NCBI GenBank assembly: GCA_000697665.1
Contig: KL197747.1
Location: 106,719-170,718, forward strand
Direction of reading: 5' to 3'
DNA length: 64,000 nt
From: Jaapia argillacea MUCL 33604
Taxonomy: Eukaryota; Basidiomycota; Agaricomycetes; Jaapiales; Jaapiaceae
Positions 32,244-60,689 of this stretch are shown here, piece after piece. Below the pieces are notes generated by a model, which was not told where the DNA came from, searched no databases, and saw only the letters and a list, made by a program, of their open reading frames with translations. A program made the position numbers and the translations under genes. Numbering within the stretch: position 1 is the first letter of the stretch; each line of letters opens with the position of its first letter.

Positions 32244-34526
32244 ATGTCTCACATCTGGACTCGCGATTCTACATTGGGAGAGGCCGAAGGTGCAGGGCGG
32301 ATACCTCGTCCCCATCATCGGAGTGTGATGCAACCTCCCAGCTTTCCGCCGCAATCAACCATCCCTGGTTGGCCAACTGCGCCACCCACGACCTTCGCGC
32401 CCGCTCCGCCACCCCCACTTCGTCTACCTCTTGAACCCTCTCCTGCGAAACGTTCCCTTAGGTTCTTGATAGACAATGGATACCCATTGCAGTAAGTCCT
32501 CAGCCACGTTTGCAGTCTTCATCGCAACAATGGTTGACTAATGACCACTCTTAGGATACTATATCCTCACTTGATTCAGTGCTGGAAAGCGTATATCAGG
32601 CCAGACGGTAGCGTCTATTTCCGGTACCAGAGTACCACTGGACCTACCATGCGTCTCGTAACTTGCGAAGACATTAGGGACCCTCAAATATACGAAACAG
32701 TTATGGCCTTGACTACGGACCGACTCGACAGAGCTCAAAGGAGTGGTACCTATGATAGATTCCCAGACGATTGGGAATTTGTCGTTGAGAGTGCTGTTGC
32801 TTCGGGAATTGATAATGGGCCTGTCATGAAGTTGGTGTCTCACAAACTTGGTTGGACATTCTTTCTGCAAGCGGATCACAGTGAGTGTGTCCCCGGTTAT
32901 ATTTCGCAATTTGTTTAACGGTTTACTCTCAGGTCTTGAACTAGGGAGCAAGACAGATTACTGGCGCTGTGTCAGTAAATACCCCATGCATCTCCGCACC
33001 TTGCCGTCTGGCTCAGACTTTGACTTTCTTGGAGCGCTGACCTTCGGGGTCAACGGTATGCATCAATCTTTCCACTACCTCATGTTTGGTTGAAGCATCA
33101 CTTATGCCCCTTCTGTCTATAGAGAGGGCTCTTGACTTCCGCGCGACCACCTTTCCCCTGAATGATGACCAAACGCAACGAGCGATTCAACTATATCACG
33201 ATCTGAAAGGTGAGCTGGATTTACTCCTGAACTGTCTTGATCGCATTTATCCCTTCCTGTGCTCCATATAGACGGAGGACCGTCGGCATATCCGATCTTA
33301 GCTTGGCACATAGCTCGAGTTATGACCATTATCGAAGAAAGCCGCGACATAGCCTTGTACGGGACCATGGACTCACGCCTCTATCGCGACGTGGCGATCC
33401 CCAAACCTACCCGGACGGTCCAAGTCATGGATTTGCTGCTTATGTTCTTCTTGTTCGGTGCCCATCGGTGAGTACAATCCTCGCTGTATGACCGGGGGTG
33501 GTTGTTGACGAGAACTGTTCGGGTTAGTATGTATCGCCGGAGATTACAGGCTGCTGCTCCGAAGAAGAATGTTCATCAGTTTGAGTTTCAGAAACTGATG
33601 AGGAGTTTCTTGCTCGAGTGGGCCGGTCAGTGTTCTAATATTCTAATTCGACCCCCGTCGCTGGCCTCTGACCAATTCTCTGACAGATTCAAACCTACTT
33701 GTAAGTGTTGTGCTTTGACCTAAGTACACTCGATATAAACTCTTATTTCCCGTGCTAGGCCACTGTATTCGTTTCGTGAGCTTCTCTTTCTCTTATACTG
33801 GCCTAGCAGTATTCTCATTTGTATTCGCACAGAGCAAACGTGGCATTTTTGGCCATCCCAGTGAGCTAACCCAACCCATACACCGATGTCTCGGCATATT
33901 CACGTTCACATGTTTGGACAGAACATCAACGGCTTACAGAAGACAGCATCTCTTGCCTCCTCCCTATTTTCCTTGACAAGTATCGCAGCTGGAGTACACC
34001 ACGTATGGCAACATCGAGGGAAAGACGCCGTTCAGAGGGAGGAATCGGTACTTCGTTTATTCTCATCATCGTATATCCTCTCTGACTCCTTCAATAGGCT
34101 CAATACATGAAACACATGGACAGCGTTAGCGAGGAGCATGGTCTCACCGTCCTTTCTTGCTTTCTAGCCTTGCCGATAGTTTGTCTTCTATGGTCCATCT
34201 TATGTTTTACAGTCGCCGTCAGCGCCTTATGTTTCCAATCTTCTGGTCGCGTTGCTCAGTCGTTGCTGGGAACTGGGTTAGGCATTCTCGGGATGTTCGT
34301 GGCCTGGACGTTGGTCGTATTCTGGAGGATATGGAAGGATAAGCCTACGGCTGAGATTGGGAAGGATTTGAATAACGAAGATATGGGTTGGAGGGAAGGT
34401 TTTCCTGCGAAGTTTGGGAGGTGGAAGATGAAGGTGAAGGGGTGGATTCCAGCGGTGACTGGGAGAAGTGCAGCCGAACCTGTCGAGAAGTCGTCCGATG
34501 CTGGTTCGGGTTCTCTTTCAGCATAG
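32244..34526 (+). CDS. WW-like domain protein with C-terminal membrane spans
   Basis: It starts MSHIWTRDSTLGEAEGAG at 32,244. A proline-rich N-terminus (PAPPPPLRLPLEPSPAK) is followed by a WW-like unit (CWKAYIRPDGSVYFRYQST), then mostly helical exons (ILAWHIARVMTIIEESRDIA; MDLLLMFFLFGAHRMYRRRL). The C-terminal exon starting near 34,107 has two membrane spans (LTVLSCFLALPIVCLLWSIL; GILGMFVAWTLVVFWRIW) and a charged tail ending at 34,526. It is a lineage-specific Agaricomycete type whose function I cannot name. Its 3' part occurs twice more: a relic at 36,735-36,960 and a fragment at 58,561-58,923 (inverted). Middle exon borders are approximate. Confidence 0.65.
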
Positions 34527-34769
34527 CTTCCAAGCCCCAATGTATCGTCAATGTTTGCCCACGACAATCGGACTACAACCCTTACTTTATTGTTACCCAG
34601 TTCGACGATGGGAAAAAATGAGAACGAAGTTCATCAGGTGAAAGAACACGTACTCTTAGACAGGGGAGTTTTCGCATTGCCATGACTTCGACAACTCTGG
34701 GAGACGACGAGGAACGTGACCTATCGAATTGATCGAAATGGTACAGTAGAGCAGGATTTTCGGAAGGTT

Positions 34770-34945
34770 CGGCAAGTCTGACAGAACCGTTAGTTCAATA
34801 TGCCAAAATCATAGTCGGGAGATCTGGTATCGTACCTCGAGAAAGGATGGGACATCTTCGAGGTCCAACTTCCCGAGCAGCGAGCACCTCAAAAATCACA
34901 TCTCTACGGAGCCGAGCGAAAGGAACGCCTGTCACATTGGTCACA
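34770..34945 (-). pseudogene. F-box exon relic (fourth copy)
   Basis: On the - strand the sequence reads as exon 1 and intron 1 of the F-box genes at 37,217, 43,419 and 56,656: a degenerate RS..SAP, then VLGNLDLEDVLSFLE-like coding, a donor, CTATGATTTTGGC, a branch-like CTAAC, CAG, and the start of exon 2 (ACTTGCCGAA). Nothing of the rest of the gene follows. It sits just downstream of the WW-like membrane gene, the same neighbour relation as at 36.7-38.8 kb. Confidence 0.65.
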
Positions 34946-35131
34946 CGCAGTGTTTGGATGAGGGGCGGCCTTCAACGGGTTGGACCTGAATCGGTTCCGA
35001 TACCACCGAATGCACTGCTCTTCAAATCAGCCCATAAAAGACCAAGTCAACAGCCTTGCCACCGATGGACTTTTTCTTTCGTCTCTATCCCTCCTCCCCT
35101 CCACTTATCTGACACCAATTCTTTCAGCCAT

Positions 35132-36707
35132 ATGACGAACATCTCCGTGGTTGCTTGCTCATATATATGGGGGAATGTAACTAACATAGCGCTCTCCGAT
35201 GACAGCGAAGCTACCGGGCTCTTACATTGCGTCAAGGCGGTATTTGGTGGGCAACAAACAACTTTCTTTGCGGCGTATTGCGCGAACCCTCCAGGAGACG
35301 ATGGTTGTCCATTTGGCTACTGTCCGCAGCCAGACGTTGCAGGTACGTATCGCTCTCAAATCGAACTCTGAAAAATGTAACCTGCTGTACAGGCTTATTC
35401 GTTCGCATTTCTAGTTGAGTCGTTTCTGTTATTCTCCATGATTTTAACTCCGATGATCGATCCTTCTTCCACCGTCAGCATATGTCTGTCAGATCTGTTT
35501 CGGTGAGTCAGTCCAGGGGCGCCCATATAATAGACCCATGATTAACGATACCCTCCGCAGTATACCTCGTCCTCTTCACCCCAAACATTCGCGAGGCCTT
35601 CTGGACACAGCTACTCACCATATACTCGGTCCTCCTATCGTGATCGATAAGCCTCCTCAGACACGAGTTAACACGACCGTCCGCCGTGATTGCGCTTTTT
35701 GTCGCGGGATCTCCTCTGACCATTTCCCTCTGGATTTCTGCAGCCTTCGGGGAACGCCTCTTTCTTTTCCGTCTAGCCGGATTGTTGGGTAGCGAGAACG
35801 CTGCAAATCGAACTCTAGTTCTTTTATCTTTCGTCGTCTGGTTGGTATTGCTGGTCTGGACGTTCTTGCCACCATCCCGTTCCCAGTTCGTCCAGGATTC
35901 GTGTTACGAGCTGGATAACCCCCTCCTCTGGAATATCACCGTCCCCACTTCCATAATTTCTGTCTTCAACATGACCGTAATGTCCAAGGTCCGGTGGCTT
36001 CCTTTCTACGATGTCGGGAGAGCCCTACACGATAGTATCTTCGGACTTCGACGTCGAAAGGAAATGTCAGTCATGTCTTGTTGTCCATAGGCAGGCAGAC
36101 TTACCGAGACTCTTTCCCATAGAGCGCACCCGACCATGATTGAATTCATCCACAAGCTTTATATCTTCTATTGGGGTTTGGGCATTGTTATGGCATGGGT
36201 TTTGTGGGTAGAGTTGAATGTACCAGAGTCGATGGTCAAACAAGATAATCTGTCCTACGGTCAGGTAAATTCATCCATCTCCCCCAGTGCAAACTCCCTC
36301 CTGATTTTCCCCTGTTCATCTCTTTTGCATAACAGATTCTGTCCTTATTCATTCCGCTTCCGGCACTAGTGACGGTGGGGTGCCACATCATATCATTGCC
36401 CTTCCCCCAACGTTTGTTTGAGAAAGTATGCTCCGCATTCACGATGACCCACTCGTCACGACATTCGTCGGGCCATACCCAGGATTCATTGCAACATCCT
36501 CCGCAATTGATCCCCTTGATATATCCATTCCAAGGCATTCCCTTAGAGGAATATATCAATATGGAGGACCGAATGCGGAATCGGCAGGGCCCATGGCGCC
36601 GACCTCGTTTTTGGTTGGCAGCCTTCCGAGGTGTTTATATCTCCTTCGATATCATCCCCGCATTTGTTCGTTCCATGGAGCGACATCCGTATCGTCTTCC
36701 TACCTAG
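35132..36707 (+). CDS. Multi-span membrane protein, unrecognised Agaricomycete family
   Basis: It starts MTNISVVACSYIWGNVTNIA at 35,132. A Cys-rich segment follows (FFAAYCANPPGDDGCPFGYC), then several membrane spans: YLVLFTPNIREAFWTQLLTI, VIALFVAGSPLTISLWISAA, TLVLLSFVVWLVLLVWTFLP, NITVPTSIISVFNMTVMSK, LYIFYWGLGIVMAWVLWVEL and ILSLFIPLPALVTVGCHIIS. It ends at 36,707. One in-frame TGA appears in the stretch near 35,640 (VLLS-TGA-SISLL), so the copy may be inactive or that base may be wrong. Function unknown. It lies between the WW-like membrane gene and a relic of that gene's 3' end. Confidence 0.6.
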
Positions 36708-36734
36708 CATTCTACTTTCCCCCGCCCCTGGACC

Positions 36735-36960
36735 ACCAGGGTTAGGCGTTCTCGCGATGCTTGTGCATGGACGTTGATGGTGTTCTAGCGGAAAGGACTT
36801 GAATAACGAAGATGGAGGCAATGTTTTCTCTGCGAAGTTTGGGAGATGGCAGATGAAGATGAAGACATGGATTCCGACGGTGACTGGGAGAAGTCCAGCG
36901 GAAGGTATCGAGAAGTCTTTTCCAGCGTAGCTTACACCTTCCGATGTATCCTCTATGGAA
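36735..36960 (+). pseudogene. 3'-end relic of the WW-like membrane gene
   Basis: GTTAGGCGTTCTCGCGATG and the following bases match the last exon of the gene at 32,244-34,526 (GTTAGGCATTCTCGGGATG), then GACTTGAATAACGAAGATG, GCGAAGTTTGGGAG and CATGGATTCC, with internal deletions. The 3' end and flank (TTTCCAGCGTAGCTT) match the inverted copy at 58,561 better than the parent gene does. Confidence 0.7.
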
Positions 36961-37216
36961 TGAATGACAAACGGACATTGATTGGGCCATACTGTGACAT
37001 TGGGCGAAACCACAATCACGGTACCTCGGCTAACTTACTCCAGCGGTTGACTATAGACATCAGGCAAAAGTACCCATACTGATAGGCCCCCGAGGGGGGT
37101 TCTTCGATTGCATCACAATTTCGACCAAGTCATGTCAATCCAGCGAAGCAGCAGTTTCAAATTCATCTCACTTTGATTTGAACCTCTCTAAGAGAAGACA
37201 AGGAACTGGTTGTGAT

Positions 37217-38794
37217 CTAAGAATACGAAACGACCCACAGAGTCCAAGACTCGTCAAGAAGAATTAACCGACCCTTACACTCCTCCAAATGAACCGACAC
37301 AATTTCCTGAAGAATGATGTTAGACGGTAACGCCAGGGGCACGGTACGTGTGGTGTGGGTGTCAGGGTCGAAGCGTACGAGATGGAGGGTGGGGGGCGAG
37401 CGAGAGCGAGGGCGGTGATCCTTTGTTGCGATGAGTATGTCATTGGCACAATTGCCCATGCCTATGAGTTCGGCATCGTAGGGGTTGGAAATGACGGAAT
37501 GGCGAAGGGTTTTCTCCACGGCATTCGTAAAGGTGAGCTCGGGGTTAGGGTTGTCTGTACTGGATGTAGGCCAGAAACGAACGATCATCCCGGGATTACC
37601 GAAGGATAGGGAGACGGCGATTACGCCTCGCAAATGCAGGCCAGAGTTATGAAAGCATCCTATACTCGATGTTTTGGTAAAATTTCCATCCATTACGGTG
37701 TGAGGCGGGTTGACACCAGAGGATAGGAGGTCTCGTATGGCATAGTGACAAATGCTGAGTTGTTCCTCCTCCTCTACCATGAGATACAGGTAGTCGCCAA
37801 TAATCGAGGCTTGGAGGCCCGACTCCGCGTCCTTGACGGCGGCAAGTGATGAATCAGGTGTGAAGTGAGTGGGGGAAAAACTAGTGACTTACAGAGGGGA
37901 GAACATGTTGCAGTTGGGATGAGACTTTTGAATCCGAATTCAGATCGTAGATGCAGACACGATACGCTTCTTCCGTCCGGTCACCCAAAACACCAATGTA
38001 GCGGCTATCAAGGAAAAGACATTCCGGAAAGGGCGTAGTAACAGGAACATGAAAGACCTCGCGGAGAGATGGTTGTTGAGCAGAGCCGTGCTTCACCTCC
38101 AAAACTCGGATGACAGAAGGTCTGGTGATCAAGATCAGCCATCTCAGCGACGTGAGACGCAGACTGCATGACTTACCCATTCTCGTCAGGGTCAAAATCG
38201 GGCTCGTCCGAAATCTCGAAGCCAATCAGGAATTTTCCACGCTCAAAGTGGGCGTCGGAATAGAGGAGGATTGTGCGTCCGATATATACCGAAGCCAGAG
38301 ATTTCATGGCTGAAATATCCCAGAGGCAGGCAATACCTCTCCCCCTGATGTGTAGCAGTATAAGATCTGCTCCAGGAATAATTCCCAACACGTCCATATC
38401 CTGGTTGAAACGATGCGAGCGTATTAGGCCGATGGGTTGGGGTTCATCTCGGGCCAAGTTATTTTGTAGTCTGCGAGCGCGCATCGCAGTTGCAATGAGA
38501 CGGTGTAGGTCCATTTTTGTTAAGTCTTCGTCGAAGGAACATGGTAGGGGATGACGACGATCCATTCGCTTCAGTAAGCGAAGCCACAGAGAGCGCGTTT
38601 CTCGTACACTATAAAAGTTTCGGCATGTCTGAAGAATTCATTATCACTGAGCCAAAATCATGATTGAGCCGTGATCTATCATATCGCACCGCTAGAAAGG
38701 ATAAGACATCTTCAAGGTCCACATTCCCGAGGATCTCAAGCATAATATCGCCAGGTAGCTGAGAGAAAGAACGACCCAGTTTGAGGGAGCTCAT
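37217..38794 (-). CDS. F-box protein, cluster copy 1
   Basis: It starts MSSLKLGRSFSQLPGDIMLE at 38,794, a classical F-box. After a 61-nt intron the F-box continues TCRNFYSVRETRSLWLRLLK, so the apparent frame break there is simply the intron. The long C-terminal half looks like a beta-propeller (ILLHIRGRGIACLWDISAMK, LDSRYIGVLGDRTEEAYRVC, IIGDYLYLMVEEEEQLSICH, GVIAVSLSFGNPGMIVRFWP) ending DESWTLWVVSYS. Probably a substrate adaptor of an SCF ubiquitin ligase; the substrate is unknown. It is transcribed away from the kinase at 39,615. Its closest relative is the inverted copy at 56,656-58,232, which shares all intron positions. Appears intact. Confidence 0.85.
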
Positions 38795-39614
38795 GTCAAG
38801 TATCTGGGATGTCATCCAGCAGTAGAGACCCTCCAATCGTGTACAGAAATCAAGTAGGCTGGCCGCTGGTGAACTGTTGCGAGGTTTCGGATGGAACCAG
38901 TGTCAGTCACACTGGTCACATGTTCTACAAATAAATCAATATGTAACGTGTGTGACTGAACGACCCGTCTTTCTTTTCGCGATCAAAGCACCCATGTTGT
39001 TTCCATGCCAGGATTCGTATTGATAATTGCATCACAAAGAATGTGCGAACTAGATGGCCGTCAACAACTCGAGTACAAGGGTCCCGCGATCATGGACAGC
39101 TTTTGTGCTACTTTCCTTCAACAATCTGTGCCTCATTGTCTCACAATAAGGCAGTCGTGTGGGAGGCAGCTACCTGGCCTTTTTGTACGCGTATCAAGTT
39201 CATTTGTGTCCTGACTTAGTCCTGGCGACAAACTTGGGTTTCTGCACGGATCCAGTGTTGCTGGCGCCCACAATGCTTGCATCTTCCAATCGGCTCTGTC
39301 GTTCACACCGCAATGTATAGGTCTTCGTTTCACTTCGATTGACGTGATACACGCACTGATGGCAGCTAAGTCAGAACAACAATGTTTCCACGCACCCACA
39401 AAATACAATGGCAGGCGTCTATCCTACAATTCAACATCGAATTTGCTTCATCATATTGATGCTCGCTGAGATCTGTTGTATTTGCGGAGAACTCGCGAGA
39501 CGTCAATCGGCGTTGATTTCTTCCGCGGTTTTCTGCTCTTTTGTCCTCTCTCTGTGATATAAAGCAACCCTTCCACACAGGAGACCGAAATCCACCGCAA
39601 TCGAACAGCCCAAG
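38795..39614. promoter_or_regulatory. Shared intergenic region between divergent F-box and kinase genes
   Basis: About 820 bp separate the two divergent starts. The counterpart between 55,838 and 56,655 has the same length and recognisable similarity throughout (for example TGTGCTACTTTC, TCACAATAAGGCAGTCGTGTG, GGAGGCAGCTA). The conserved head-to-head arrangement suggests a shared promoter. No specific factor site could be assigned. Confidence 0.5.
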
Positions 39615-42600
39615 ATGAATTTATCTGCGGTCATCCGGACAGATTCGCACAGACAGGTAAGTCCTCAGCTCCGCGCACCTCTGACTCTCTGAGCTTATCG
39701 TGGTGACTCTGGGTTTAGAAGGCGTTTCGCAATTTGAGAGAAGAGAAGTTGAGAGGCCGAGACAAAAAACCTAGTGACGAAGACGAATCTGGTGACGAAG
39801 ACGAACTTAGTGACGAAGACGAACTTAGTGACGAAGACGAACCTGGCGACCAATACCAATATAGTGACCAAGACGAACCTAGGGATGGCGACGAACACCG
39901 CGTTGACTGGTTGTATGTCTATGCACTCGAATGGTCTAATGATGCCACTCAAATTCCATTTCTCAGTATTGTTACGAATGGGGGCGGCCACGGATCCTCT
40001 GAGTTGCTTGATCACGAGAAATCCTTGGAAAAGATTGCCGGGTGAGTGCAGCGTATTGCTCGGATCTTTGGCTCGTATGTTGAAATTGGACTAGATTCAA
40101 AGGTGGTATTGGAGAGGGCATCGGTATACTCACGAGAGTGGCCAAACATAAGGGTTACTTGTTGGTCAGGGACAAGCTTGACGCCAATCTTCAGGAGACT
40201 GTGACGCTAGTCGGCTGGAAGGTAAAGGATATCACCCACCTAAACTTCGAAAGTGGCTGGCTGGAATGGTTAATGGTGAGGCTTCTCCCCTGATGGGTGT
40301 TGCTTTCCTTATCTGTCGACTAGAAACGCAACGGTATTGTAGGAGCCGATCGTTGGGCGATCTCCTGGAGACTCTCTGGGCGCTTGCATGAAGCATGCAA
40401 GGCTAGTGCGAGAGGAACTGTTCGCCTCAAGCTTCTGGGAAATGACATGTTGGACACTCCACTCGAACAACGTTTAAAAATGCCACCTAGTGCAGTGATA
40501 TTCCATACCAAAGTTGCGTGTACGTGTTCGTCACGTGAGGTTTTGGTCCTTTTCTGACACCGCTGTTTTCAGATGCCATGCATAGAATATCCACCCAGCA
40601 AGCGACGCTCAAGCGCGATGATATTGAGATGCTCTTGGTGGCACATCCGTTGGCAATAGGTGATACCCCCACTTCTGGACCATCTAATTTTATTAATGCG
40701 ATCATTCTAGCCCATCTTCTCTTCCTTCCATACGAGCCAAAGTGGAGGTCCTATTTGGTCATCGAGCAGGGGAAAGCCACCCTCTTCACCGACGGACTCA
40801 AGGATTCTGCAAGGAAACATGTCACCAAGGTACTCAAGGTGACAGTCCAGGACTATGGCGCCATCTACGACTATCTTTCGGATCTTGCGAATCACAGCAT
40901 TGAAAAAGGAAAGAGAATCGCAAAAGGAAGCAGCATCGAAAATGGAAGCGGCATACGATTTCAAGTAAGCATCCCTAGTGAAGGTGCTACCACCAACGTC
41001 AGTATTCTCAGAGTTTTTGTCGTCGTAGGTCCGCCTTTCCGAAGATGCCAGCTGGGGCGTCCATGATCTCCTCAAACCAGGCTGCCGCATTGCACCCGAT
41101 AAATTCGTCGAACAGCAGAAGAAGGCTCACGATGCGGAACTTCAGAAGAATTTCCATGCTTGGGTCACTGAAACTAGCAACGTGCTCATCGAATACAACT
41201 CAACAGCCCAGCAGTTGTCCGTATGCGAGCAGCATGCAGTCCATATCTGTCAAGACGAACCCGGTTTTAACGCCCTTGACCGCAGTTGGCCCAATACGGA
41301 CCCGATCCCTTGTCCCGCTGGCGTGGCATTAAGGGAGTTCACCAGAAATCTAATCTGGTTAGCCGCTCTGCTTAATTCTCCTGTGCCCTACGCGAATCTT
41401 CCGCTCCTGCTTGGGGATTCTAGCTTGTGGATTTCTACCCTGCGAAAGGTTGGTCGAACGTTTTAGAGGACGACGAGAAAACTAACGAAGCTTAAACAGG
41501 TACTGTGGCTGTTGCCCACGGATGGCGGATTTCATTCGATATTTCAATTCCGCCGTCGAACCATTCGTCTGTTACGGCGTTTATGCAAGTCGTGGAATGA
41601 CTTCCCCGCAATATGGAATGTTAAGGGCCCTGGTGACATAACACTATCGGCAGACAATCTAAGTCAGCCGGGAGGATACTCGCGAGTCTCTCGCGGTACA
41701 ATGAACGGTAGTGCTGAGGCTAATACCGTTGCTCTGAAAAAGTTGGTAGACAACACCGATCTTCGGAAGGCAAGTTGATGGTTATCCTCTTTCGTTGTCC
41801 AAGGCTCATCTCAACCTTCTTATTCAGAGCATCCTCCGTGAGGCCATTGTTTGGGAACAAGCCGTCCATCCACGCATCGCGAAGTTCCTCGGTTTATTTT
41901 CGGAGGAGCCAGGCAAACTCCCGGATTTGCTTGCTAATAAGTCCTTGTACATGGTTTCGAATTTCATTGAGGGGACGCTCGCGAAAGATTGGGCCGTCCC
42001 GAAAACTACGACGCCGAAGATGATCAACGTTGTGGTGAGTCGGGCGACACGGCCGCCTAGTGTTGGTAACTGACTCTGATATCAGTTACGCGACGTCATC
42101 GATGCATTGCACTATCTCCACAACGAAATGGGGATCGTTCACTGCGATATGCGCGCAGTGAGTTGTTGCCGAAACTTCCTGTCGTACGGTCTATTGAACG
42201 TCTTTCGTTCATCAGGCGAACATTATGGTTGATGAGAAGGACCGTGCTCATCTCATCGACTTTGGACTATCAAATATCCGAATAGACGTAAACTCTCTCG
42301 GTCAAAACCTCGCCACTACCACTCAAGATCTCACAAACGCGAGGTGGCTGCCCCCAGAGATGTTCGTCTCAGACGATTCAGCGCGCTACACCTTTCACGA
42401 CGTGACTACAGATATGTGGGCCTTTGGGTGTGTGATTATGGAGGTTTGTCATCCCATCGATTCTCCCTGTCCTTATGATCGCTGACACGGTCGAGTCCTT
42501 AGCTTTACACGAAGCAAAATCCCTGGCACACAACTCCTGATGGAAAATTACCCGGGATAATTGAACAAGCCGTGAAAGCCAAGGCTGCCTATCCGTGGGG

Positions 42601-42742
42601 GGTGGCGGCTCCGAAAGACATTCCGGAAGACATGGACCCCAAACTGTGGGACTTGGTCGTGAACTGTTGGCGGCAGGACAGTTGTCGTAGGGCGGGAGCG
42701 ACCGTTGCTCTGGCGGTTCTGAAAGATATTTCGCCCACCTGA
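39615..42742 (+). CDS. Protein kinase with long N-terminal region, cluster copy 1
   Basis: It starts MNLSAVIRTDSHRQ at 39,615, then an intron and an acidic repeat of (S/G)DEDE(L/P/S) units. The N-terminal 500 or so residues include GIGILTRVAKHKGYLLVRDK, LLVAHPLAIGDTPTSG and WLAALLNSPVPYANLPLLLG, with no domain I can name. The kinase domain has a glycine loop GGYSRVSRG, VALKKL, the catalytic loop IVHCDMRAANIMVD, DFGLSN, LPPEMF and DMWAFGCVIMEV, then RRAGATVALAVL before the stop at 42,742. HCD replaces HRD (a non-RD kinase), but the catalytic Asp, Asn, DFG Asp and VALK Lys are present, so activity is plausible. It resembles the expanded TKL-like kinases of Agaricomycetes. Copy at 52,774-55,837. 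Confidence 0.85.
39766..39860 (+). repeat. 18-bp coding minisatellite in the kinase N-terminus
   Basis: Units of the form AGTGACGAAGACGAACTT recur about four to five times, encoding a run of SDEDEL-like repeats, followed by diverged units (GACCAATACCAATATAGT). The inverted copy of the gene lacks this array and has a shorter unrelated basic stretch there. Confidence 0.8.
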
Positions 42743-43418
42743 ATCTTACGACGATTGATATGTCTACTTCCTGATACTTCACTGATGTTAACACGATTCC
42801 TTCACCCATGCTTGAACACTTATCTCAAGTACTTTTGAAAGTTTTCAGAGAAAAATACATCAAGACGTTAACGTTGCGCGGCCCCTGCGACATCATCCCG
42901 GGCCTACACGTGAACTGTAAGGTGACCACGACGACTCGCAATCTCGCCCACTCCGGAGAGATGGCTCATTGCGCAGTGGGCACTACAACCCTGTTCACAC
43001 AATATTATCCCCAATTCTTGGCCACCGGTTCTCCAGTTAGGACTAAGCTTCGTGTTCCCTCATTCTGCTTGTGTGCAGCATCGCGCGAGAATTGGCCTCC
43101 ACGATCGAATCCGGCTTGTCACTTCTCTCCAAGGGCAGTGAAACGACAACTGAAAGGCCCCTTCCTTTATCGAGACTCACTACGACAGTTGGCGAAGTGA
43201 CCCAAGAGTTGGCGGCGAGGGAGCTGCAACCATCGAGTCAATTTGAACCCTCACTCGACGAGTTCCCTAGTGGCTAATGATGACGAAAATCAAAAGGAGG
43301 CATTCTTCGATTGCTTCACAATCTCGAACAAGTTCTGTTCTACGCATTGAAAATGTAAAATTTCTGCCATTTTGACTTCACAACTCTTGGGAGTGGGCAC
43401 AGGGAAGGGCCGAGAGGG

Positions 43419-44991: not shown

Positions 44992-45218
44992 CGAAAAATC
45001 GAGGAGATGTACCTTGCAATTGGTTGCTCGAATGTGGCACCCACGTCGAACTGCCACATGTGACTACGTGACATGATCAGGTTGAACATCAAAGCGTGAC
45101 AACATCGCCTAGCGCTGAGACATTCCGAGGGACTGTACAAAGGTGTAGTAGCCCTGAGTAACGATAGGAAAAATTGAAATAAATCGAGCAGAGGGAGGAA
45201 GGGAAGAGGAGAATATAT

Positions 45219-46508: not shown

Positions 46509-46559
46509 GATGAGAGTTGTGGTGTACAGCAATAGGCAGTGCGAGGACGCCAAATTGAT

Positions 46560-48219: not shown

Positions 48220-48647
48220 GTCAGGGCGTTCAAGTTATGGTCTCAGGTGGATCCGCTTGTACTATCTTTCCCTTTGCGCATGTAGCCATAAGGTTTCTTT
48301 GCTCTCGGGTGGATCCGCAAAGTAAGCTATTGAAAGTGCAAGTCATTGGTTGGCGTCTGACTGGGCGGATTTGCAGTACATCGACACAGAAGCCACCCAC
48401 CGCGGCCGTCCGCGTTTTGAGAGTCCCAGAGAATAAAATACAATCATACGAGACACCAAGATACGACTACGATTGAGCGACGATAAATATTATACAAGCA
48501 GTGTCATCAGCAGCACAACTGTTTTTGTAATGGGGGGTGAGTATAAATTGTAGCCAAATGCAAAGGTCCATCAAGCCGACCAAACAATAATCAAGAAATA
48601 AAACCAAAATATCACCAATAGCAAAAACCGTCCATCGGTCAAAACGT

Positions 48648-50711: not shown

Positions 50712-51401
50712 AGTTCAAAAATACGCCAGGGCAGTGATGGTGGAAGGGAAGAGATGTCTACGTTTGCGAACAGTTCATTTTTATCGTGGCGGGCGCTAAG
50801 TGCAGCAGTTAATGGTTACTGAATCAGCTGAGGTGTCCGGGGATAGGCAGCTAAATGTCGTAAGCCGGGGCTGTGAATGAACGTGTTCCTTGGCAACTCC
50901 CCTCCGGTGTTCACCCATCATTGGCCTCGAGGCTCGCCTAGATAATACCGGAGCCCTCGTATCCTTTCCCCTGAACCGCCTCCATGGTTTTGGTCTCCGG
51001 TTTTTGTCAAATTGTCTCGGAGGTGAAGCGCCCAACGTCAGTTTCAGTTTACGCAGAACCGCCATCCGATCGGGAGCCCCTGCACAGCAAACGGGACAAC
51101 TCTAGCTCTCATCTTCAAGTCAGCCCAAGGATAAATATGCAGGAGCACCGTTGGTGGTCGTGTGAGGACCTCATGTCCTTCGCTAGCCTTAGTTCTCGCT
51201 GGTCGTATGCCCTCGTGACTCGGCGTCTTGTCCCTTTGTCTTGAAACGGGTCTCAGATCTAATTGTGCCTCCTTTCTACTCAACCGGCTACAAATATGGA
51301 CAGCCCCTCGTCCTTCTCTTTCCTTCGTTCCATCACCGCCCCGCCAAGGCTCCTCTGAATCATCCCCACTCTCCTGAGACGTATTGACTACGATCTCCAC
51401 A

Positions 51402-52018
51402 ATGCGCACCAATATCGAACGCGTCATCTCCTCCCTCCTCCAAAATGGTAAACCCATCACCCTCTCCACCACTTTCCCCGCCTACATGTCTATGGCGGGG
51501 TTCGGCACGACCCTCTGCGCTGAAGCCCTCGTGGCCTTCGAACATGCAATGGATAAACATCCTGCAAAGACCAACGCCGCTCGGGCTGTCTACGCGGAGG
51601 AAATTCGGCAATTAAAGAAGGAGTACTTTCTTGATAAGTTGGGGTGCTCCGATGGTTATGATGGGGAGATGTTGGTGGCTTGTCTTGGGTCTGACCGCCC
51701 GGGTGATGTTCCGTATGCGGGGGGTTATGGATATGGAGGATTGAGCATGTCGAAAGAGGAGTTTATGCGGCATACTGGGTTGAGTGAAGAGGATTGGGAG
51801 GAGATCACGGTTTCAGAAGAATCCCGACCGCCCTCTGCAAAGAAGCGTTTTCGTATGTACTCCTCGTTTTCATTCCTTTGGGTCCTCTCGTCGCTGACCG
51901 TCTCATCTGTGTAGGAAAAACTAAGAAAACGAAGCGACGTCGACCGAAATCAATAGATAGCTCTTCGTCGAGCGACTGTGATCCGTATGGTCCATCGACA
52001 AGTTCTTTCCTTCTTTAG
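51402..52018 (+). CDS. Small hypothetical protein
   Basis: It starts MRTNIERVISSLLQNGKPIT at 51,402. A helical N-terminal half (FEHAMDKHPAKTNAARAVYA, EEIRQLKKEYFLDKL) leads to an acidic segment (SKEEFMRHTGLSEEDWEEIT). A single intron (GTATGTACTC to TGTGTAG, about 60 nt) precedes a basic tail (KTKKTKRRRPKS) and a Ser-rich end at 52,018. The basic tail could act as a nuclear localisation signal. No family recognised. Confidence 0.6.
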
Positions 52019-52019
52019 T

Positions 52020-52640
52020 CGCCCCCCAATACGTTCTCGATCCACCATTCTCTGCTATCCTACGCAGCTACGCTTATGGCTTTGCCATGTACTTTATGTG
52101 TAGTATGTACTATCGTGTATGTATCGATAATTCTTCGCACTATGATCAACTTACTGTATGTTTTGACGCACTTCATCCGAAACCTCGCCGGAGTTGTGAG
52201 GCACACGTCAAGTCTCGAAAGCTTCGCGATCCTCCCTTGGCGGTGTCGTTCACCAAAGTCCACTTGTAGATGCATGGAGAATGCCCCCACCTGGTCAGGT
52301 GCACCGAATATATGCGACACCCTTACAGTACTCACAATAAGCCCTTCCTCCACCGCAGGTGGTCTGGGTCCCCACAACTTGCTCACTCCCTGGGGTTATC
52401 CGTCACCCTTGACTTAGGAGAAGGCTATACCTCCGCAGATAAGTGCCGCCCGAGTCGAGTACTGATTTCATGGACGGGGCCAAGACTCGACCGATATAGT
52501 TGTCAAGATCGTTGAGAACTTCAATCGTAGTCATCGCACAATGAAACAGGAGAATGTCATCGTGCTGGTAGGATCAGTGTGGGCCACGTATCGACAGTCG
52601 ACAGGTAGTTCTCACATTCCGAGGCTCCAAAAGCCGGATA
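52020..52640. other. Intergenic region before the inverted duplicate
   Basis: No gene seen. Similarity to the flank of the first kinase copy (42,743-42,880) fades near 52,640, which marks this edge of the duplicated block. Confidence 0.5.
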
Positions 52641-52773
52641 CTTGGGTGTGACCAACTCTTCTAATACGTTTTGTTCTGAAGCATTTCAAACCTCACTTGA
52701 GCCAGGGTGTCGGAGAAAGTAGATTGGGTGAAGGTATCAGGTAGGAAGTAGACATATCAAGCCTTTACAAGAA

Positions 52774-55700
52774 TCAGCTGGGCGAAATAGCTCGGAGAGC
52801 TACCAGAGCAGTGGTCGCTCCCGCCCTATTGCGACGGTCCGCCTGCCAACATTCCATGGTCAAGTCCCACAGTCTAGAATCCATGCCTGTCGGAGCCCTT
52901 GACAGCTTCCACGGGAGGGCAGCATTGGCTTCCACAGCTTTTTTGATTTCTGCGGATAATTTCCCATCAGGCGTTGTGTGCCATGGGTTTTCCTTTGTGT
53001 AAAGCTAAGGAGTCAAAAGTGTCAGTGATCATAAGGACAGGAAGAATCAATGGGGGTGACAAACCTCCATAATCACACACCCAAAAGCCCACATATCTGT
53101 CGAAACGTCGTTGAAGGTGTATCGCCCTGGGCCATTGGAGACAAACATCTCTGGGGGCAGCCACCTCGCGTTTGTAAGATCTTGAGTGGTAGTGGCAAGG
53201 TTTTGACCGAAAGAGTTTACGTCTATTCGGATATTGGAGAGCCCAAAGTCGATGAGGCAACCACGGGCCTTCGGGTCAACCATAATGTTGGACTGATGAA
53301 CGAAAGAAGTTCAATAGACCGTACGACACGAAGTTTCGGCAACTACTCACTGCGCGCATATCGCAGTGAACGATCCCCATTTCGTTGTGGAGATAGTGCA
53401 ATGCATCGATGACGTCGCGTAACTGATATCAGAGTCAGTTGCCAACACTAGGCGACCGTGTCGCCCGACTTACCACAATGTTGATCATCTTCGGCGTCGT
53501 AGTTTTCGGGACGGCCCAATCTTTCGCGAGCGTCCCCTCGATGAAATTCGAAACCATGTACAAGGACTTATTAGCAAGCAAATCCGGGAGTTTGCCTGGC
53601 TCCTCCGAAAATAAACCGAGGAACTTCGCGATATGTGGATGGTCGGCTTGTTCCCAAACAATGGCCTCGCGGAGGATGCTCTGAATAAAAAGGTTGAGAC
53701 GAGCCTTGGACGACGTAAGAAGATAATCATCAACGTGCCTTCCGAAGATCGGTGCTCTTTACCAACTTTTTCAGAGCAACAGTATTAGCCTCCGAGTCGG
53801 AAGTAGCGCTCATTGTACCGCGATAGACTCTAGAGTATCCTCCCGGCTGACTTAGAGTACCTTCCGATAGTGTTATGTCATTAGGGCCCTTGACCTCCCA
53901 TATTTTGGGAAAGTCATTCCACGACTTGCATAAACGCCGCAACAGACGAATGGTTCGACGGCGGAATTGAAATATCGAATGAAATTCGGGGTTGCGATTC
54001 TCGCCATCCGTGGGTAATAGCCGCAGTACCTGTTTAGCCTTCGTCAGTACCTTCATCGCCCTCGAAAACGTTCAACCAACCTTTCGAAGGGTGGAAATCC
54101 ACAGGCTGGAATCCTCAAGCAGGAGCGGAAGATTCGCGTAGGGCACAGGAGAATTGAGCAGAGCAGCTAACCAGATGAGATTTCTGGTGAATTCCCTCAA
54201 CTTCTCGCCTGCGGGACAAGGGATCGGGTCCATATTGGGCCAATCACGATTAAGGGTGTTGAAACCGAGTTTGTCTTGACACATATGGATTGCATGCTGC
54301 TCGCATACGGACAACCGCTTGGCTTTTGAGTTGTATTCGGGGAGCACTTTGCTAGTTTTAGTGACCCAAGCATGGAAATTCTTCTGGAGTTCCTTATCGT
54401 GAGCTTTCTTCTCCTTTTCGACGAATGTGTCGGGCGCAATGCGGCAGCCTGGTTTGAGGAGATCATGGATGCCCCAGCTGGCATCTTCTGAAAGGCGGAC
54501 CTACGACGACAAAAACTCTGAGAATACTGACGTTGGTGGCAGAACTTTAACCAGTGATGCTTACTTGAAATCGTACGCCGCTTTCATTTTTGATGCTGCT
54601 TCCTTTCGCGATTCTCTTTCCTTTTTCAATGCTGCGATTCGAAAGATCCGAAAGATAGTCGTAGATGGCGCCATAGTCCTTCACTGTCACCTTGAGTACC
54701 CTGGTGACATGTTTCATTGCAGAATCCTTTAGCCCGTCGGTGAAGAGGGTGGCTTTCCCCTGCTCGATGACCAAATAGGACCTCCACTTTGGCTCGTATG
54801 GAAGGAAGAGAAGATGGGCTAGAATGATCGCATTAATAAAATTAGGTGGTCCAGAAGTGGGGGTATCACCTATTGCCAACGGATGTGCCACCAAGAGCAT
54901 CTCAATATCATCGTGCTTGAGCGTCGCTTGCTGGGTGGATATTCTATGCATGGCATCTGAAAACAGCGGCGTCAAAAAAGGGCCAAAACCTCACGTGACG
55001 AACACGTACACGCAACTTTGGTATGGAATATCACTGCACTGGGCGGCATTTCCAAACGTTGTTCGAGTGGAGTGTCCAACAAATCGTTTCCTTGAAGCGT
55101 GAGGCGAACAGTTTCTCGCACGCTAGCCTTACATGCTTTACGCAAACGCTCAGAGAGGGTCCAGGAGATCGCCCAGCGATCGGCTCCGACAGTACCGTTG
55201 CGTTTCTAGTCGACATATGAGGAAAGTAAAACGTATGAGGGGAGAAGCCTCACCTTTAACCACTCCAGCCAGCCATTTTCGAAGTTTCGGTCAGTGATCT
55301 CCACTATTTGCCAGCCGATTTGCATCGCCGTCTGCTGTAGCTTGGCGTCAAGCTTGTCCCTGACCAACAAGTAACCCTGATAATTGGCCACTCTCGTGAG
55401 TATACCAATACCCTCTCCAATACCGCCTTTGAATCTGGTCCAATCTCAACGAAGGAGCCAAAGATACTCAGCAATGTATTGCACTCACCCGGAAATCTTT
55501 TCCAAGGACTTCTCGCGATCAAGCAACTCAAGGGATCCGTGGCCTCCCCCGTTCGTAACGATGCTGAAACTAGAGTTTGAGTCATACGATTGGACCATTC
55601 GAGTGCATGACATACAACCAATGGACCCGCCTGTCGTCGCCATCTCTAGGTCCGTGCTGGCGCGTAGATTTGGCTCTGTCCCTAGGTTCGTCTCGGCCCG

Positions 55701-55837
55701 CCAATTTTTCCTCTCTCATCTCTCTGAATATCCTCTTGGTCCCAGAGTTACCGCGATGAGCCCAGCGTCAGAAGTGCGCAAAGCTGAGGACTTACCTGTC
55801 TGTCCCAATCTGTCTGGATTGCTGTGGATAAATTCAT
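52774..55837 (-). pseudogene. Protein kinase, cluster copy 2 (N-terminus damaged)
   Basis: It starts MNLSTAIQTDWDRQ at 55,837 and follows copy 1 exon by exon. Kinase motifs are intact where read: GGYSRVYRGTM, VALKKL, DFGLSNIRIDVNSFGQ, LPPEMF, DMWAFGCVIMEV, and RRNRAGATTALVAL before the stop at 52,774. Near 55,600 the exon lacks one base relative to copy 1 (TGTC-ATGCAC against TGTCTATGCAC) and is one base shorter again within the next 40 bp, so the N-terminal frame breaks at a TGA soon after LYVMHSNG. A product would need a downstream start. The acidic repeat of copy 1 is absent. Probably a pseudogene, but the kinase-coding exons remain open. Confidence 0.75.
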
Positions 55838-56655
55838 CTCGGGTTGTTCGATTGTGGTGGGTATCAGCCTCCCAGCTGGAAGGATTGCTTTATATCACGG
55901 AGAGGACAAAAGAGCAGAAAACCGCGGAAGAAATCAACGCCGATTGACGACTCGCGAGTTCTCCGCGAATACGACGGATCTCAGCGAGCATCGATATGAT
56001 GAAGCAGATTCATTGTTGAATCGTAGGATAAACGCCTACCATTGTATTATGTGGTGCGTGGATACTTTGTTGTTCTAACTTAGCCGCCATCAGGGCGTGT
56101 ATCATGTCTATCAAAGTAAAACGAACAACGTATCGATTGGTGTGCGAAAGACAGCCGATGAAAGATGCAGGTATTGTGGGCGCCAGTAACACCAGATCCG
56201 TGCAGAAACCCAAGCATGTCACCAGGACTAAGTCAGGACACAAATGAACTTGACACGCGAACAAAAAGGCCAGATAGCTGCCTCCCACACGACTGCCTTA
56301 TTGTGAGACAACGAGGCACAGATTGTTGAAAGAAAGTAGCACAAAAGCTGTACATGATGGCGGGACCCTTGTACTCGAGTTGTTGACGGCCATCTAGTTC
56401 GCCATTCTTCGTGATGCAGTATGGTTCCTGGCATGAAAACAAGGTGGGTGGTTTGCATCGCGAAAAGGAAGAAAGGGTGTCCAGTCACATGTTCAACTTG
56501 GTCGTGTTCATTGTGATTGGTGCTGATTGGTGTGGTACATGTGACCAGTGTGACTGGCCTGGTTCCCCGCAACCGTTCACCAGCGGCCAGCCTACTTGAT
56601 TTCTGCACACGATTGTAGGATCTCTACTCCTGGATATACATCCTTGATATTTGAG

Positions 56656-58232
56656 ATGAGCTCCCTCAAACCGGGTCGTTCTTTGTCTCAGCTACCTGGC
56701 GATATTATTCTTGAGATCCTCAGGAATGTGGACCTTGAGGATGTCTTATCCTTGCTAGTGGTGCGATATGATAGATCACGGCTCAATCATGATTTTGGCT
56801 TAGGGAACAAATTAATTCTTCAGACCTGCCGAAACTTTTACTGTATACGAGAAACGCGCTCTCTGTGGCTTCGCTTACTGAAGCGAATGGATCGTCGTCA
56901 TCCCCTACCTTGTTCCTTCGACGAAGACTTGACAAAAATGGACCTACAGAGTCTCATTGCAACTACGATGCGCGCTCGCAGACTACGAAATAACTGGGCC
57001 CGAGATGAACCCCAACCCATCGGCCCAATACGTTCGCATCGTTTCAACCAGGATATGGACGTGTTGGGAATTATCCCTGGAGCAGATCTTGTACTGCTAC
57101 ATGTCAGGGGAACAGGTGCTGCCTCCCTCTGGGATATTTCAGCCATGAAACTTGTGGCTTCGATACATATCGGATGCACAATCCTCCTCTATTCAGATGT
57201 TCACTTTGAACGTGGAAGATACTTGATTGGCTTCGAAAGTTCGGACGAGCCTGATTTTGACCCTGACGAGAATGGGTAAGTCATGCGGTCCGCTTTTCAC
57301 TTCGCTGAGAGGCTAATCTTAATAACCAGACCTACTGTTATCCGAGTTTTGGAGGTGAAGCACGGCTCTGCTCAACAACCATCTCTCCACGAGATCTTTC
57401 ATGCACCCGTCACTATCCCCTTTCCGCGATGCCTTTTCCTCGATAGCCGCCACATTGGTGTTTTGGGTGACCGGACAGAAGAAGCGTATCGCGTGTGCAT
57501 CTACGATCTGATATCGGATTCAAAAGTCTCATCCCAGCTACAACATGTGCTCCCCTCGGTACGTCACTGCCCGCCCCCCACTCACTTGACATCTAATTAA
57601 TCACTTGCGTCGTCAAGGACGCGGAGTCGGGCCTCCAAGCCTCGATTATTGGCGATTACCTGTATCTCATGGCGGAGGAGGAGCAACAACTCTGCATTTG
57701 TCACTATGCCATACGAGACCTCCTTTCCTCTGGTGTCAACCCGCCTCCCACCGTAATGGATGGCAATTTTACCAAAACATCGAGCGTAGGATGCTTTCAT
57801 AATTCTGGCCTACATTCGCGAGGTGTAATCGCCGTCTCCGTATCCTTCCGTAATGCTGGGATGATCGTTCGGTTCTGGCCCACATCCAGTACAAACAACC
57901 CTCACCTCGAGCTCACCTTCACGAATGCCGTCGAGAAAATCCTTCCGCATTCCGTCATTTCCAACCCCTACGATTTCGAACTCATCGGCATGGGCAATTG
58001 TGCCAATGACATACTGATCGCGACAAAGGATCAACGTCCTCGGCATCGCTCGCGCCCAACCCTTCATCTTGTACGCTTCGACCCTGATGCCCGCACCACA
58101 CGTGCGGTGCCCCTGGCGCTGCCGTCTGATATCCATCTTGATGAAATTATGTCGGTTCATTTGGAGGAATTCAAGGGTCGCCTGATTCTTCTCGACAAGT
58201 CTTGGACTCTGTGGGTCATCTCGTATTCTTAG
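56656..58232 (+). CDS. F-box protein, cluster copy 2
   Basis: It starts MSSLKPGRSLSQLPGDIILE at 56,656. Exons are 56,656-56,760, 56,824-57,275, 57,330-57,558 and 57,618-58,232, all phase-consistent. The F-box continues across intron 1 (DVLSLLV then TCRNFYCIRETRSLWLRLLK). The C-terminal part looks like a beta-propeller (VLLHVRGTGAASLWDISAMK, LDSRHIGVLGDRTEEAYRVC, GVIAVSVSFRNAGMIVRFWP), ending DKSWTLWVISYS. It is intact and very similar to copy 1. It is divergent from kinase copy 2 across an 820-bp intergenic region, as in the first cluster. A likely SCF adaptor with unknown substrate. Confidence 0.85.
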
Positions 58233-58560
58233 GCCATAGTATTTTCCTGTCTTCTCTCAGGACTGTTCAAACCAAAGTAGGATGTAATGAGGAAACTGCT
58301 GCTTCACTGGATAGACATGATATTGTCGAAATTGTGGTGCAATCGAAGAACCTCTAGTGTGCCTATCAGTATGTGTGTTTTCGCCTGATGTTCGCCATGG
58401 TCAACTACTGGAGTACCCGAGTGCGCATTCAAACGGTTGAGTTTGTGGATTTACAGGGTCGTGCAATTTCACCCAATGTCGAAGTGTCACAATAAAAGGG
58501 GTAGGGGAGCTACGTCCGATTGTCATTCGTTTATATAGACGGTATATTGGAACTTGGAAG

Positions 58561-58923
58561 CTACGCTGGAAAAAAATCCGAACCGGCGTCGGATGGCTTC
58601 AGCTGGACTTCTCCCAGACGCCGTCGAATCCATGTCTCCATATTCCAATTCCATCTCCTAAACTTGGCAGGAAAACCTTCCCTCCATCCCTTATCTTCGT
58701 TATTCAAATCCTTCCCAATCGCAGCCCTAGGTTTATCCTTCCATATCCGCCAGAACATGACCAACGTCCAGGCCAGTTCCCAGCAACGACTGAGCAACGC
58801 GACCAGAAGATAAGGCGCTGACGGCGACTGTAGAACATAAGATCGACCATAGAAGGCAAGCTATCGGCAAGGCTAGAAAGCAAGAAAGGACCATGAGGCC
58901 ATGCTCCTGGCTAACACTGTCCA
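58561..58923 (-). pseudogene. 3' fragment of the WW-like membrane gene at the duplication join
   Basis: The - strand from 58,923 reads TGGACAGTGTTAGCCAGGAG, matching 34,117 onward (TGGACAGCGTTAGCGAGGAG), through LPIACLLWSILCSTVAVSAL to a charged tail (KDLNNEDKGWREGFPAKF). The 3' end and downstream flank resemble the relic at 36,735-36,960 more than the full gene. A deletion of about 26 bp near 58,785 breaks the original frame. Confidence 0.75.
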
Positions 58924-58966
58924 CCCGGAAGTAGTCATGTTTTGGACGGGCGAGATGTTGGGTCAT
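58733..58966 (-). CDS. Chimeric ORF: transaldolase leader fused to membrane-span fragment
   Basis: The ATG at 58,966 is the counterpart of the upstream ATG in the transaldolase leader (46,943). From it runs an uninterrupted 77-codon frame: [15 protein letters not shown] from the former leader and filler, then DSVSQEHGLMVLSCFLALPI and CLLWSILCSTVAVSAL from the membrane gene, ending HVLADMEG. It has one strong membrane span. About 370 bp of the transaldolase promoter region lie upstream. The frame from the old transaldolase ATG closes after 21 codons. Whether it is expressed is unknown. Confidence 0.4.
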   Translation of the reverse strand: MTQHLARPKHDYFRVDSVSQEHGLMVLSCFLALPIACLLWSILCSTVAVSALSSGRVAQSLLGTGLDVGHVLADMEG

Positions 58967-59389
58967 CGAGGCAAGACCTTGAGGTTCTTTATGATGCACT
59001 GGACGAGGTGATGGTGTGACGATGTCAGGACTCTGCGAAGGCAGGAACCAACGCCAAAGCCAACTTTGCTGACCCGTGGCTAAGGCGTGAACGTTTGAAT
59101 ATACCCGCCACTTGTAGGACAGTAAAACCGACTGGGACCGTGAAAGTAACCTATGGAAATCCAGGCTGAAATTGCAGGCAACGAGGTGGGATGTCAGGAT
59201 GTTTCTGAATGACCCAAGAACGCCGGCCCGGCCTCGCCGTGTACTTCGACCGACATCGAGGAGTGGCTGTTTGCTCGACCTCTACTTACCTGACACGCTT
59301 AGGGTAAGTGACGGGGGCTAACTTAATCGCTGGTGAGTACCAATTTGGCGTCCTCGCACTGCCCATTGCTGTACACCACAACTCTCATC
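58931..59389 (-). promoter_or_regulatory. Duplicated ULD/transaldolase promoter
   Basis: The - strand matches 46,520-46,978 through GAGTCCTGACATC, CCTCGATGACCCAACATCTC and GCCCGTCCAAAACATGACTAC, then stops matching at transaldolase codon 3. It still serves the ULD gene on + and now faces the chimeric membrane fragment on -. Confidence 0.75.
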
Positions 59390-60676
59390 ATGTTCCCCAT
59401 CACCTTTAGCTCGTTTGGCGACATCGTCGCCGCCGCTCAGCTAGCCGTCGCGATCGCCAACGCACTCAGCGAAAGCTCTGGCTCCTCATACGAATATCAA
59501 TGTCTAATTGAAGAACTGCGGTCATTCTCACGAGCGCTTAACGCCGCACATGGTGTCGTCCAGAACATAACTCTTAGTCGCGACGTTTTGAATGGCATCG
59601 ACGCAGAGGTGACAGTAACTCGATCGATTATGACCAAGTTTGAGGACAAGATTCAGGGGTATAAGAAAGCTTTGGATAGAGGTGGGTCGGGTAGCTCTTG
59701 GCGGAAGATTGGTTGGGGTTTGTTCAAGAAGCAGGAGATTGTCGAGCTGAGGACCAAGCTGGCAGCGCATCGTCAGAATATCATCCTGCTTCTTACTCTC
59801 GGGAATACGTAGGCACCTATTCATTTTCCTATACCCGCCTCATCCTGATGTGTGTTAGGCTTTCCGATGGGGTTGTCCAAGAGTTCTTGAACGAAGCAAG
59901 GCAGAACCATATGTCGATCAAAGTCAAGTTGAATGAAATATATACAGCAATCCAACAACCCTCACCTTCCATCGGGTACTCACGCCATAACACTGTGCAG
60001 TTGGAAGATGTTTTGGGCTCTACCATGATTCTTCCCATGGAGCTCTGCTCCACGTGGGCTGTCAGTGTTTCATCTCGTACACAATTCAACTTATCTCACC
60101 TTTATGATCCAGAAATTTGACTCCGTAATCAAGACCCGTTTTCGAGGTCGTGCTGGACAGCAATATGTGGAAGGTGGTGCATACGAAATATCAGCAGAGG
60201 GGAAAGGAACCATCAACTCCCGTGAATGGGAACTTTTGGTGCGGAGAGGCATGGTTCTCGAAATGTCTATTGTCATGGAAGGCTCCGGAGCGCAATCCCG
60301 TCCATGTCCTCGATGTCGTGCCCCCAGTCGCACGGTTAAGATAGGGGATTGGGATGAATGGTACGACATTGCACATCTCTTTGGGATTCACTTTTCTGAG
60401 TGTCCCATTATTACAATTTGCAGCCAGTACTGCAATGGCAGGTATCAGGTGGTGTTCGCTGATCTCTCCCCGACGGAAATATTCAGCCCAATTCATGACC
60501 AGGACGTTTCTCAACTCAGCCCTGAAGCTGCAATGTCTCTCTTGACCGAAATATCTCTGTTCCGACGAATCCAAGTGACATGCTGTGCACCGGACCTCTT
60601 TAAGAGCATGCGGGCCTTATATGAATCAATGTGTGCCATAAAAAGGTTGGCAGAAATGGATGAGGTGCACAGCTGA
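59390..60676 (+). CDS. Ubiquitin-like-domain (ULD-type) protein, copy 2
   Basis: It starts MFPITFSSFGDIVAAAQLAV at 59,390. Two introns (after LLLTLGN near 59,808 and after ELCSTWA near 60,060) match copy 1. It contains the helical N-terminal module, GGSGSSWRKIGWGLFKKQEI, LEDVLGSTMILPMELCSTWA, KFDSVIKTRFRGRAGQQYVE and a Cys pair (CPRCRAPS), then WYDIAHLFGIHFSECPIITI. After about FRRI (near 60,575) the C-terminus (CAPDLFKSMRALYESMCAIK) has no counterpart in copy 1; the switch coincides with the edge of the duplicated block. Stop at 60,676. Intact. Confidence 0.8.
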
Positions 60677-60689
60677 CACTATCCTACAT

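Follow-up and report, generated by a model that had tools for sequence, protein, structure and literature searches.

An inverted copy with exchanged blocks next to its F-box/kinase/ULD donor segment in Jaapia argillacea, and a possible circular DNA intermediate

The locus described here lies in a stretch of 64,000 nucleotides (the window) of contig KL197747.1 from the basidiomycete Jaapia argillacea MUCL 33604 (GenBank assembly GCA_000697665.1, positions 106,719 to 170,718 of the forward strand). Coordinates are counted from the first nucleotide of the window. Two copies of a multi-gene segment were found, the second inverted and with its two halves exchanged. Copy 1, the donor, carries a membrane gene, an F-box gene remnant, a further putative gene, a repeated membrane-gene 3′ piece, F-box1 (− strand), a protein kinase gene (+), F-box2 (−), a ULD gene (−) and a transaldolase gene (+). 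Along the minus strand, copy 2 runs from ULD through the promoter and ATG of the transaldolase to a join, and from there through the membrane-gene 3′ part and F-box to the kinase. The genes listed for copy 1 in an earlier sequence-only reading are present, but that reading overlooked F-box2, the F-box remnant and the repeated membrane-gene 3′ piece. The features are as follows.

34,117–34,620, + strand: donor block A, the 3′ part of the putative membrane gene M1, at the left donor end (BLAST; ATG at 34,116, TGGA at 34,117–34,120)
34,620–36,790, + strand: segment of copy 1 only, with the F-box remnant, the further putative gene and the repeated membrane-gene 3′ piece; no copy 2 counterpart
34,733–36,700: putative gene between the membrane gene and F-box1, copy 1 only; no Pfam family above cut-off
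34,764–34,927, − strand: F-box gene remnant, 5′ part only, with 70–79% identity to the three other F-box copies; no counterpart in copy 2
36,739–36,917, + strand: M2, a second, truncated membrane-gene 3′ piece, direct repeat of 34,275–34,492
37,100–38,794, − strand: F-box1 gene, in donor block B (sequence comparison, Pfam)
39,835–42,782, + strand: protein kinase gene with 3′ flank, and upstream coding sequence possibly its own, to the right end of donor block B (Pfam Pkinase)
43,303–44,989, − strand: F-box2 gene, separating donor block B from block C; an older paralogue of F-box1, missing from copy 2
45,436–46,981, no single strand: donor block C-D, with the ULD gene (−) and the transaldolase promoter, ATG and about four codons (+) (BLAST, Pfam)
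46,971–48,219, + strand: whole transaldolase gene, single in the window (Pfam TAL_FSA; start read by eye)
52,728–58,923, − strand: copy 2 block A-B, with the kinase block, F-box and membrane-gene 3′ fragment (BLAST)
58,924–58,927, − strand: join D/A, about four unmatched bases (CGGG on the minus strand) or TGGA microhomology
58,928–60,462, no single strand: copy 2 block C-D, with the transaldolase ATG and promoter and the ULD gene (5′ part, ULD domain and a diverged tail) (BLAST)

The block matches come from a BLAST self-comparison of the whole window. Three inverted matches, with E-values down to 0, connect the copies: 34,117–34,620 with 58,923–58,464 (−), 36,790–42,782 with 58,716–52,728 (−), and 45,436–46,981 with 60,462–58,928 (−). 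Copy 2 spans 52,728–60,462 and on the minus strand consists of donor block C-D followed by block A-B, i.e., the two halves of the donor are exchanged and the relative orientation of both blocks is kept. The inverted copy with swapped block order that had been proposed is borne out by these matches; its proposed limits of 52,640 and 60,580 were too generous, as the BLAST matches stop at 52,728 and 60,462. Over 36,860–42,540 and 45,530–46,975, which leaves out the membrane-gene part and both outer ends, the copies are 88.1% identical (834 differences in 6992 aligned columns). Within block A, identity to copy 2 is 0.945 at 34,138–34,287.

Gene models were drawn by eye. The kinase was confirmed by Pfam (Pkinase, E 1.3e-9), and the ULD gene matched ULD_2 (E 5.5e-12). 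TAL_FSA was matched by two open reading frame (ORF) pieces of copy 1 (E 4.6e-27 and 4e-26; profile positions 98–282 of 285); the N-terminal part of the transaldolase, whose ATG is at 46,971, was read by eye. The F-box match (E 0.008) lies below the Pfam cut-off, as does a PigL_N match in the search of the window's ORFs. An ORF of the kinase block (40,539–41,063) matched Creatinase_N_2, the Creatinase/Prolidase N-terminal domain (E 2.8e-6, 27.9 bits against a cut-off of 29.7), and the region at 39.8–41.4 kb may be the N-terminal part of the kinase or a separate gene. The membrane gene is so called because of its hydrophobic look; in Pfam searches of the ORFs, no family above cut-off supported the name. 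Four ORF pieces tried from the 34,620–36,790 segment likewise gave no Pfam match above cut-off. Scans for relatives outside the window returned 8 pattern matches with 0 confirmed among viruses, and 86 pattern matches with one weak relative (in a bacterial metagenome-assembled genome, and unused) among prokaryotes.

The two ends of the copy 1 segment, in the membrane gene and at the transaldolase start, are joined inside copy 2 at 58,928/58,923, in agreement with the sequence-only reading. Donor ends A and D meet there with only a short scar and no long homology. Through the join the sequence reads ...ATGACTACTTC, then CGGG, then TGGACAG..., and TGGA is present at both donor ends (34,117 and 46,984). 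Because the copies have diverged by ~12%, four added bases and a 4-base microhomology are indistinguishable. It is the only C/A junction seen within the 64 kb. Substitutions private to copy 2 are present on either side of the join, so it cannot be a product of copy 1 reads alone, and the sequence from 15,043 to 64,000 is free of N; misassembly of copy 2 from copy 1 reads is unlikely. A fusion gene at the join was considered and rejected on reading the sequence, as the transaldolase ATG is out of the membrane-gene frame and an early stop is present.

Copying was from copy 1, or something like it, to copy 2, because the whole transaldolase gene is found at copy 1 only and copy 2 has just its promoter and first codons. 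The opposite direction was rejected by argument, since it would require the transaldolase start to have arrived by chance just ahead of the rest of the gene. Of the F-box sites that distinguish the two copies, F-box2 shares the copy 1 state at 85 and the copy 2 state at 55 (p 0.014). The F-box gene of copy 2 would therefore be the faster-changing one, as expected of a derived copy; another reading of the imbalance is conversion between F-box1 and F-box2, which are neighbours in copy 1. The membrane-gene fragment of copy 2 contains a gap of 26 bases, a length not divisible by three. With gapped columns dropped and a split chosen post hoc, this fragment agrees with M1 and M2 at 19:7 sites left of 34,450 and at 18:28 sites right of it (Fisher p 0.007). 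It looks M1-like to ~34,450 and M2-like beyond, and may be an M1-M2 recombinant.

Ratios of nonsynonymous to synonymous divergence (dN/dS) between the copies were computed for 16 segments. The first sums used nine of them (four F-box, two ULD, and a, c, and e of the kinase block); segments b and d of the kinase block were shown apart, and the ULD middle, the ULD tail, the membrane-gene segment, and kinase segments c2 and f were dropped. The four F-box segments gave dS 0.220 and dN 0.068 (dN/dS 0.31), and the two ULD segments dS 0.278 and dN 0.113 (0.41). For the kinase block the ratio depended on the choice of segments: 0.32 with a, c, and e, 0.76 with c2 and f (singly 0.69 and 0.80), and 0.50 with all seven (dS 0.200, dN 0.099). 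The values for c2 + f and for all seven mean that the first choice overstated the constraint on the kinase. The ULD middle segment has in-frame stops and a ratio of 1.21, the first F-box segment alone gave 1.65 on one synonymous change, and one stop in kinase segment c of copy 2 was read as an intron. These ratios show the copied genes to be under apparent coding constraint on average.

Divergence is uneven along the kinase block, where near-identical patches are shared between the copies at 40,491–40,900 and 41,756–42,246. Segments b and d (40,575–40,900 and 41,756–42,037), picked after the values had been seen, have dS 0.05; they differ at 7 of 139 synonymous sites, and the remaining five segments at 75 of 329 (p 1e-6). 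Among 300-column windows the minimum is 5 differences, at 40,491 (500 permutations never gave fewer than 14), and the longest identical run, of 112, was matched in 1 of 2000 permutations, which do not control for coding constraint. This pattern suggests later gene conversion between the copies, and the true age of the duplication may therefore exceed that implied by 88% identity.

A permutation from A-B-C-D to C-D-A-B is the published signature of circle-mediated duplication (PMC7450558, PMC7188851). The simplest single account of copy 2, to which we give about an even chance, is that a circle was formed by end joining and went back into the chromosome minus the F-box2 segment. The donor segment, 34,117–46,981 (~12.9 kb or less), would have been without F-box2 and the 34,620–36,790 pieces or have lost them later. 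It would have been copied into a circle, with its ends joined within the membrane gene and just past the transaldolase start codon. The circle would have opened in the kinase–ULD interval and been inserted inverted, ~5.7 kb downstream from copy 1. Sequence exchange between the copies probably followed, and the membrane-gene fragment would have decayed. We infer a circle and this opening because a single closure followed by a single insertion would produce both the swap and the join. In a simulation with free uniform ends, a gap of 0–2.65 kb between the outer ends arose in 18.6% of draws, and a circle is therefore mildly favored. The sequence-only reading had proposed a circle that opened between the kinase and ULD genes. 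The ends of copy 2 map to that interval, but not to a single point, as they lie ~2.65 kb apart in the donor; the circular origin, which fits the permutation and the short-scar join but would also call for adjacent ends, is the favored hypothesis.

Several observations weigh against a circular origin. The published circle test demands copy ends that are neighbors in the donor (PMC7450558). The ends of copy 2 map to donor positions 42,782–42,786 (kinase side) and ~45,436 (ULD side), so that ~2.65 kb separates blocks B and C and the strict signature is absent from present-day copy 1. The gap is filled by F-box2 (43,303–44,989), a gene that copy 2 does not have. F-box1 and the F-box gene of copy 2 share 88.9% identity, while F-box2 has 73.6% identity with the former and 72.0% with the latter, so F-box2 separated before the two copies did. 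It was probably present at copying, and so lost, or else it moved in later. Neither flank of copy 2 shows a distinct trace of the F-box2 region: shuffled sequences scored as high in 27 of 50 cases for the left flank and in 3 of 50 for the right. Identity also falls near the outer ends, to 0.67–0.70 at 42,545–42,840 on the kinase side, and to 0.68 and then 0.49 from 45,527 down to 45,242 on the ULD side. The donor and the copy are only 5.7 kb apart, a range in which array rearrangement and template switching are plausible, and the repeated F-box modules of copy 1 indicate earlier local duplication at the locus. End adjacency would be restored by a loss of F-box2 at the opening of the circle or by its later gain in copy 1, i.e., the gap could be secondary.

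The insertion points cannot be fixed because identity decays towards both outer ends. The best alignment score for an extension past 42,782/52,728 was reached by 7 of 200 shuffles, and that past 45,436/60,462 by 2 of 200. Similarity of the translated ULD tails was not significant (369 of 2000 local and 319 of 2000 global shuffles), and residual similarity of their nucleotides was detected in a codon-shuffle test (0 of 1000). Carriage by a transposon was considered and rejected: between 52,500–52,780 and 60,440–60,800 the longest shared inverted word has 8 bases (shuffle mean 8.0), and no terminal inverted repeat is present there. An 11-base direct repeat, AGGTATCAGGT, lies near the copy 2 ends at 52,732–52,742 and 60,440–60,450 (200 shuffles: mean 8.1, longest 12). 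It was rejected as a target-site duplication because words of this length occur in 67 of 2000 random window pairs and because donor homology runs beyond it on the ULD side.

A tandem array could have come first. Unequal exchange would give A-B-C-D/A-B-C-D, the C-D/A-B junction fragment would be moved inverted past the transaldolase gene, and partial deletions would restore a single copy 1. This route needs no free circle, although loop-out from the array would itself yield one, and it predicts an identical D/A junction. Three F-box modules (at 34,764, 37,100, and 43,303) and two membrane-gene 3′ pieces in copy 1 amount to repeated local duplication, and tandem duplication, further duplication, and partial deletion is described as a typical false positive of circle calls (PMC7188851), a paper that also opens a caveat on duplicates sharing one chromosome. 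However, no unit of a two-unit array would contain an entire membrane gene together with an entire transaldolase gene, so that an extra transposition, or an inversion with deletions, is needed. Between these two genes there is no leftover direct unit or C/A junction, just the smaller F-box and membrane-gene repeats, and we consider this history rather unlikely.

Replicative template switching (fork stalling and template switching/microhomology-mediated break-induced replication, FoSTeS/MMBIR) would produce the same order if one repair event copied 45,436–46,981, switched to 34,117, went on to 42,782, and then switched back. It would explain the gap between the donor ends without a deletion, there being neither a circle nor a missing F-box2 to account for. 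Local rearranged copies with short-homology joins fit this mechanism as described in PMC7450558, and TGGA is a possible microhomology at the join, although it is unresolvable at ~12% divergence. The near-adjacency of the outer ends becomes chance under template switching, at the 18.6% of the simulation, and we take such an event to be unlikely. A false connection at 58.92 kb would make the arrangement an assembly artefact. The window has one scaffold gap, flanked by 291-base near-identical repeats at 14.56–15.33 kb, and the assembly is thus imperfect, but the substitutions specific to copy 2 on either side of the join and the N-free sequence around it make this explanation very improbable.

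Other features were observed elsewhere in the window. At 14,564–15,333, two 291-base direct repeats, 99.7% identical, surround a run of 188 N; an unmerged contig overlap is therefore most likely, and the gap is probably false. Two related inverted genes, at 2,903–6,294 (+) and 9,327–12,548 (−), are 31–57% identical in protein over five stretches, and one piece of the former matches a Plavaka transposase domain (Pfam E 6.8e-15). Together with ULD_2 and the below-cut-off PigL_N match, this family is suggestive of a mushroom-type basidiomycete. To the left of copy 2, the ORF at 51,378–51,911 has a weak match to the GHMP kinase C-terminal domain (E 0.011, below the Pfam cut-off). To the right, a reading frame includes LDALNECD (63,376–63,399), which we take to resemble the Walker B motif of NACHT domains; the ORF itself had no Pfam match.

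F-box, kinase, and ULD families are greatly expanded in Agaricomycetes, so a circle mechanism would bear on how they multiply. We suggest, tentatively and with somewhat less than even confidence, that this locus is the first circle-mediated duplication described in a mushroom-forming fungus, an end-joined F-box/kinase/ULD circle inserted beside its donor and kept under constraint, and that circles help such families to multiply. If a circle was involved, circle-based gene duplication would extend from yeast to filamentous, probably mushroom-forming fungi, and the locus would offer a concrete case with three predicted joins, at which relatives could separate circle, tandem array, and template switching. 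If an array was rearranged instead, it is an ordinary segmental duplication.

Among the literature-search matches listed, no circle-mediated duplication in a basidiomycete or mushroom was recognized. In its passages on circles, a rice-blast paper says only that they can reinsert (PMC9694575). Circular-intermediate duplications of this shape are known in mammals, as the sequence-only reading had stated. Human circular-DNA-mediated segmental duplications (cSDPs) share the order, A-B/C-D becoming B-A/D-C, and the short-scar D/A closure, and their joins show gains or losses of 1–27 bp or microhomology of 1–2 bp (PMC7450558). They are 22–3918 kb long and lie 0.09–58 Mb from the donor or on other chromosomes; in six cases the insertion was resolved to the base, and copy-free relatives are available (PMC7450558). 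In Jaapia, blocks B and C are non-adjacent. Permuted copies in cattle and tilapia are cited in the same paper, and for the cattle color-sidedness KIT translocations a circular intermediate was likewise proposed, with far larger segments (492 and 575 kb). The eccDNA (extrachromosomal circular DNA) duplications of Takahashi and Innan rely on the same order test, but cases with extra tandem pieces nearby were excluded as false positives (PMC7188851); the Jaapia locus has such pieces, smaller than the unit. The sequence-only reading named no standard example in mushrooms. Among fungi, region B of wine yeast is a published example, a 17 kb segment of Zygosaccharomyces bailii integrated via eccDNA (PMC3053389), and the permuted shape is therefore not restricted to mammals. 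Like the Jaapia copy, region B is fungal, has several genes in circularly permuted order, sometimes cut, and shows little or no homology at its joins (PMC3053389). It was horizontally acquired, has a functional autonomously replicating sequence (ARS), and exists as young, near-identical, always intact copies on different chromosomes (PMC3053389), whereas the Jaapia copy is one old (~88%), local, inverted copy with a 2.65 kb piece missing.

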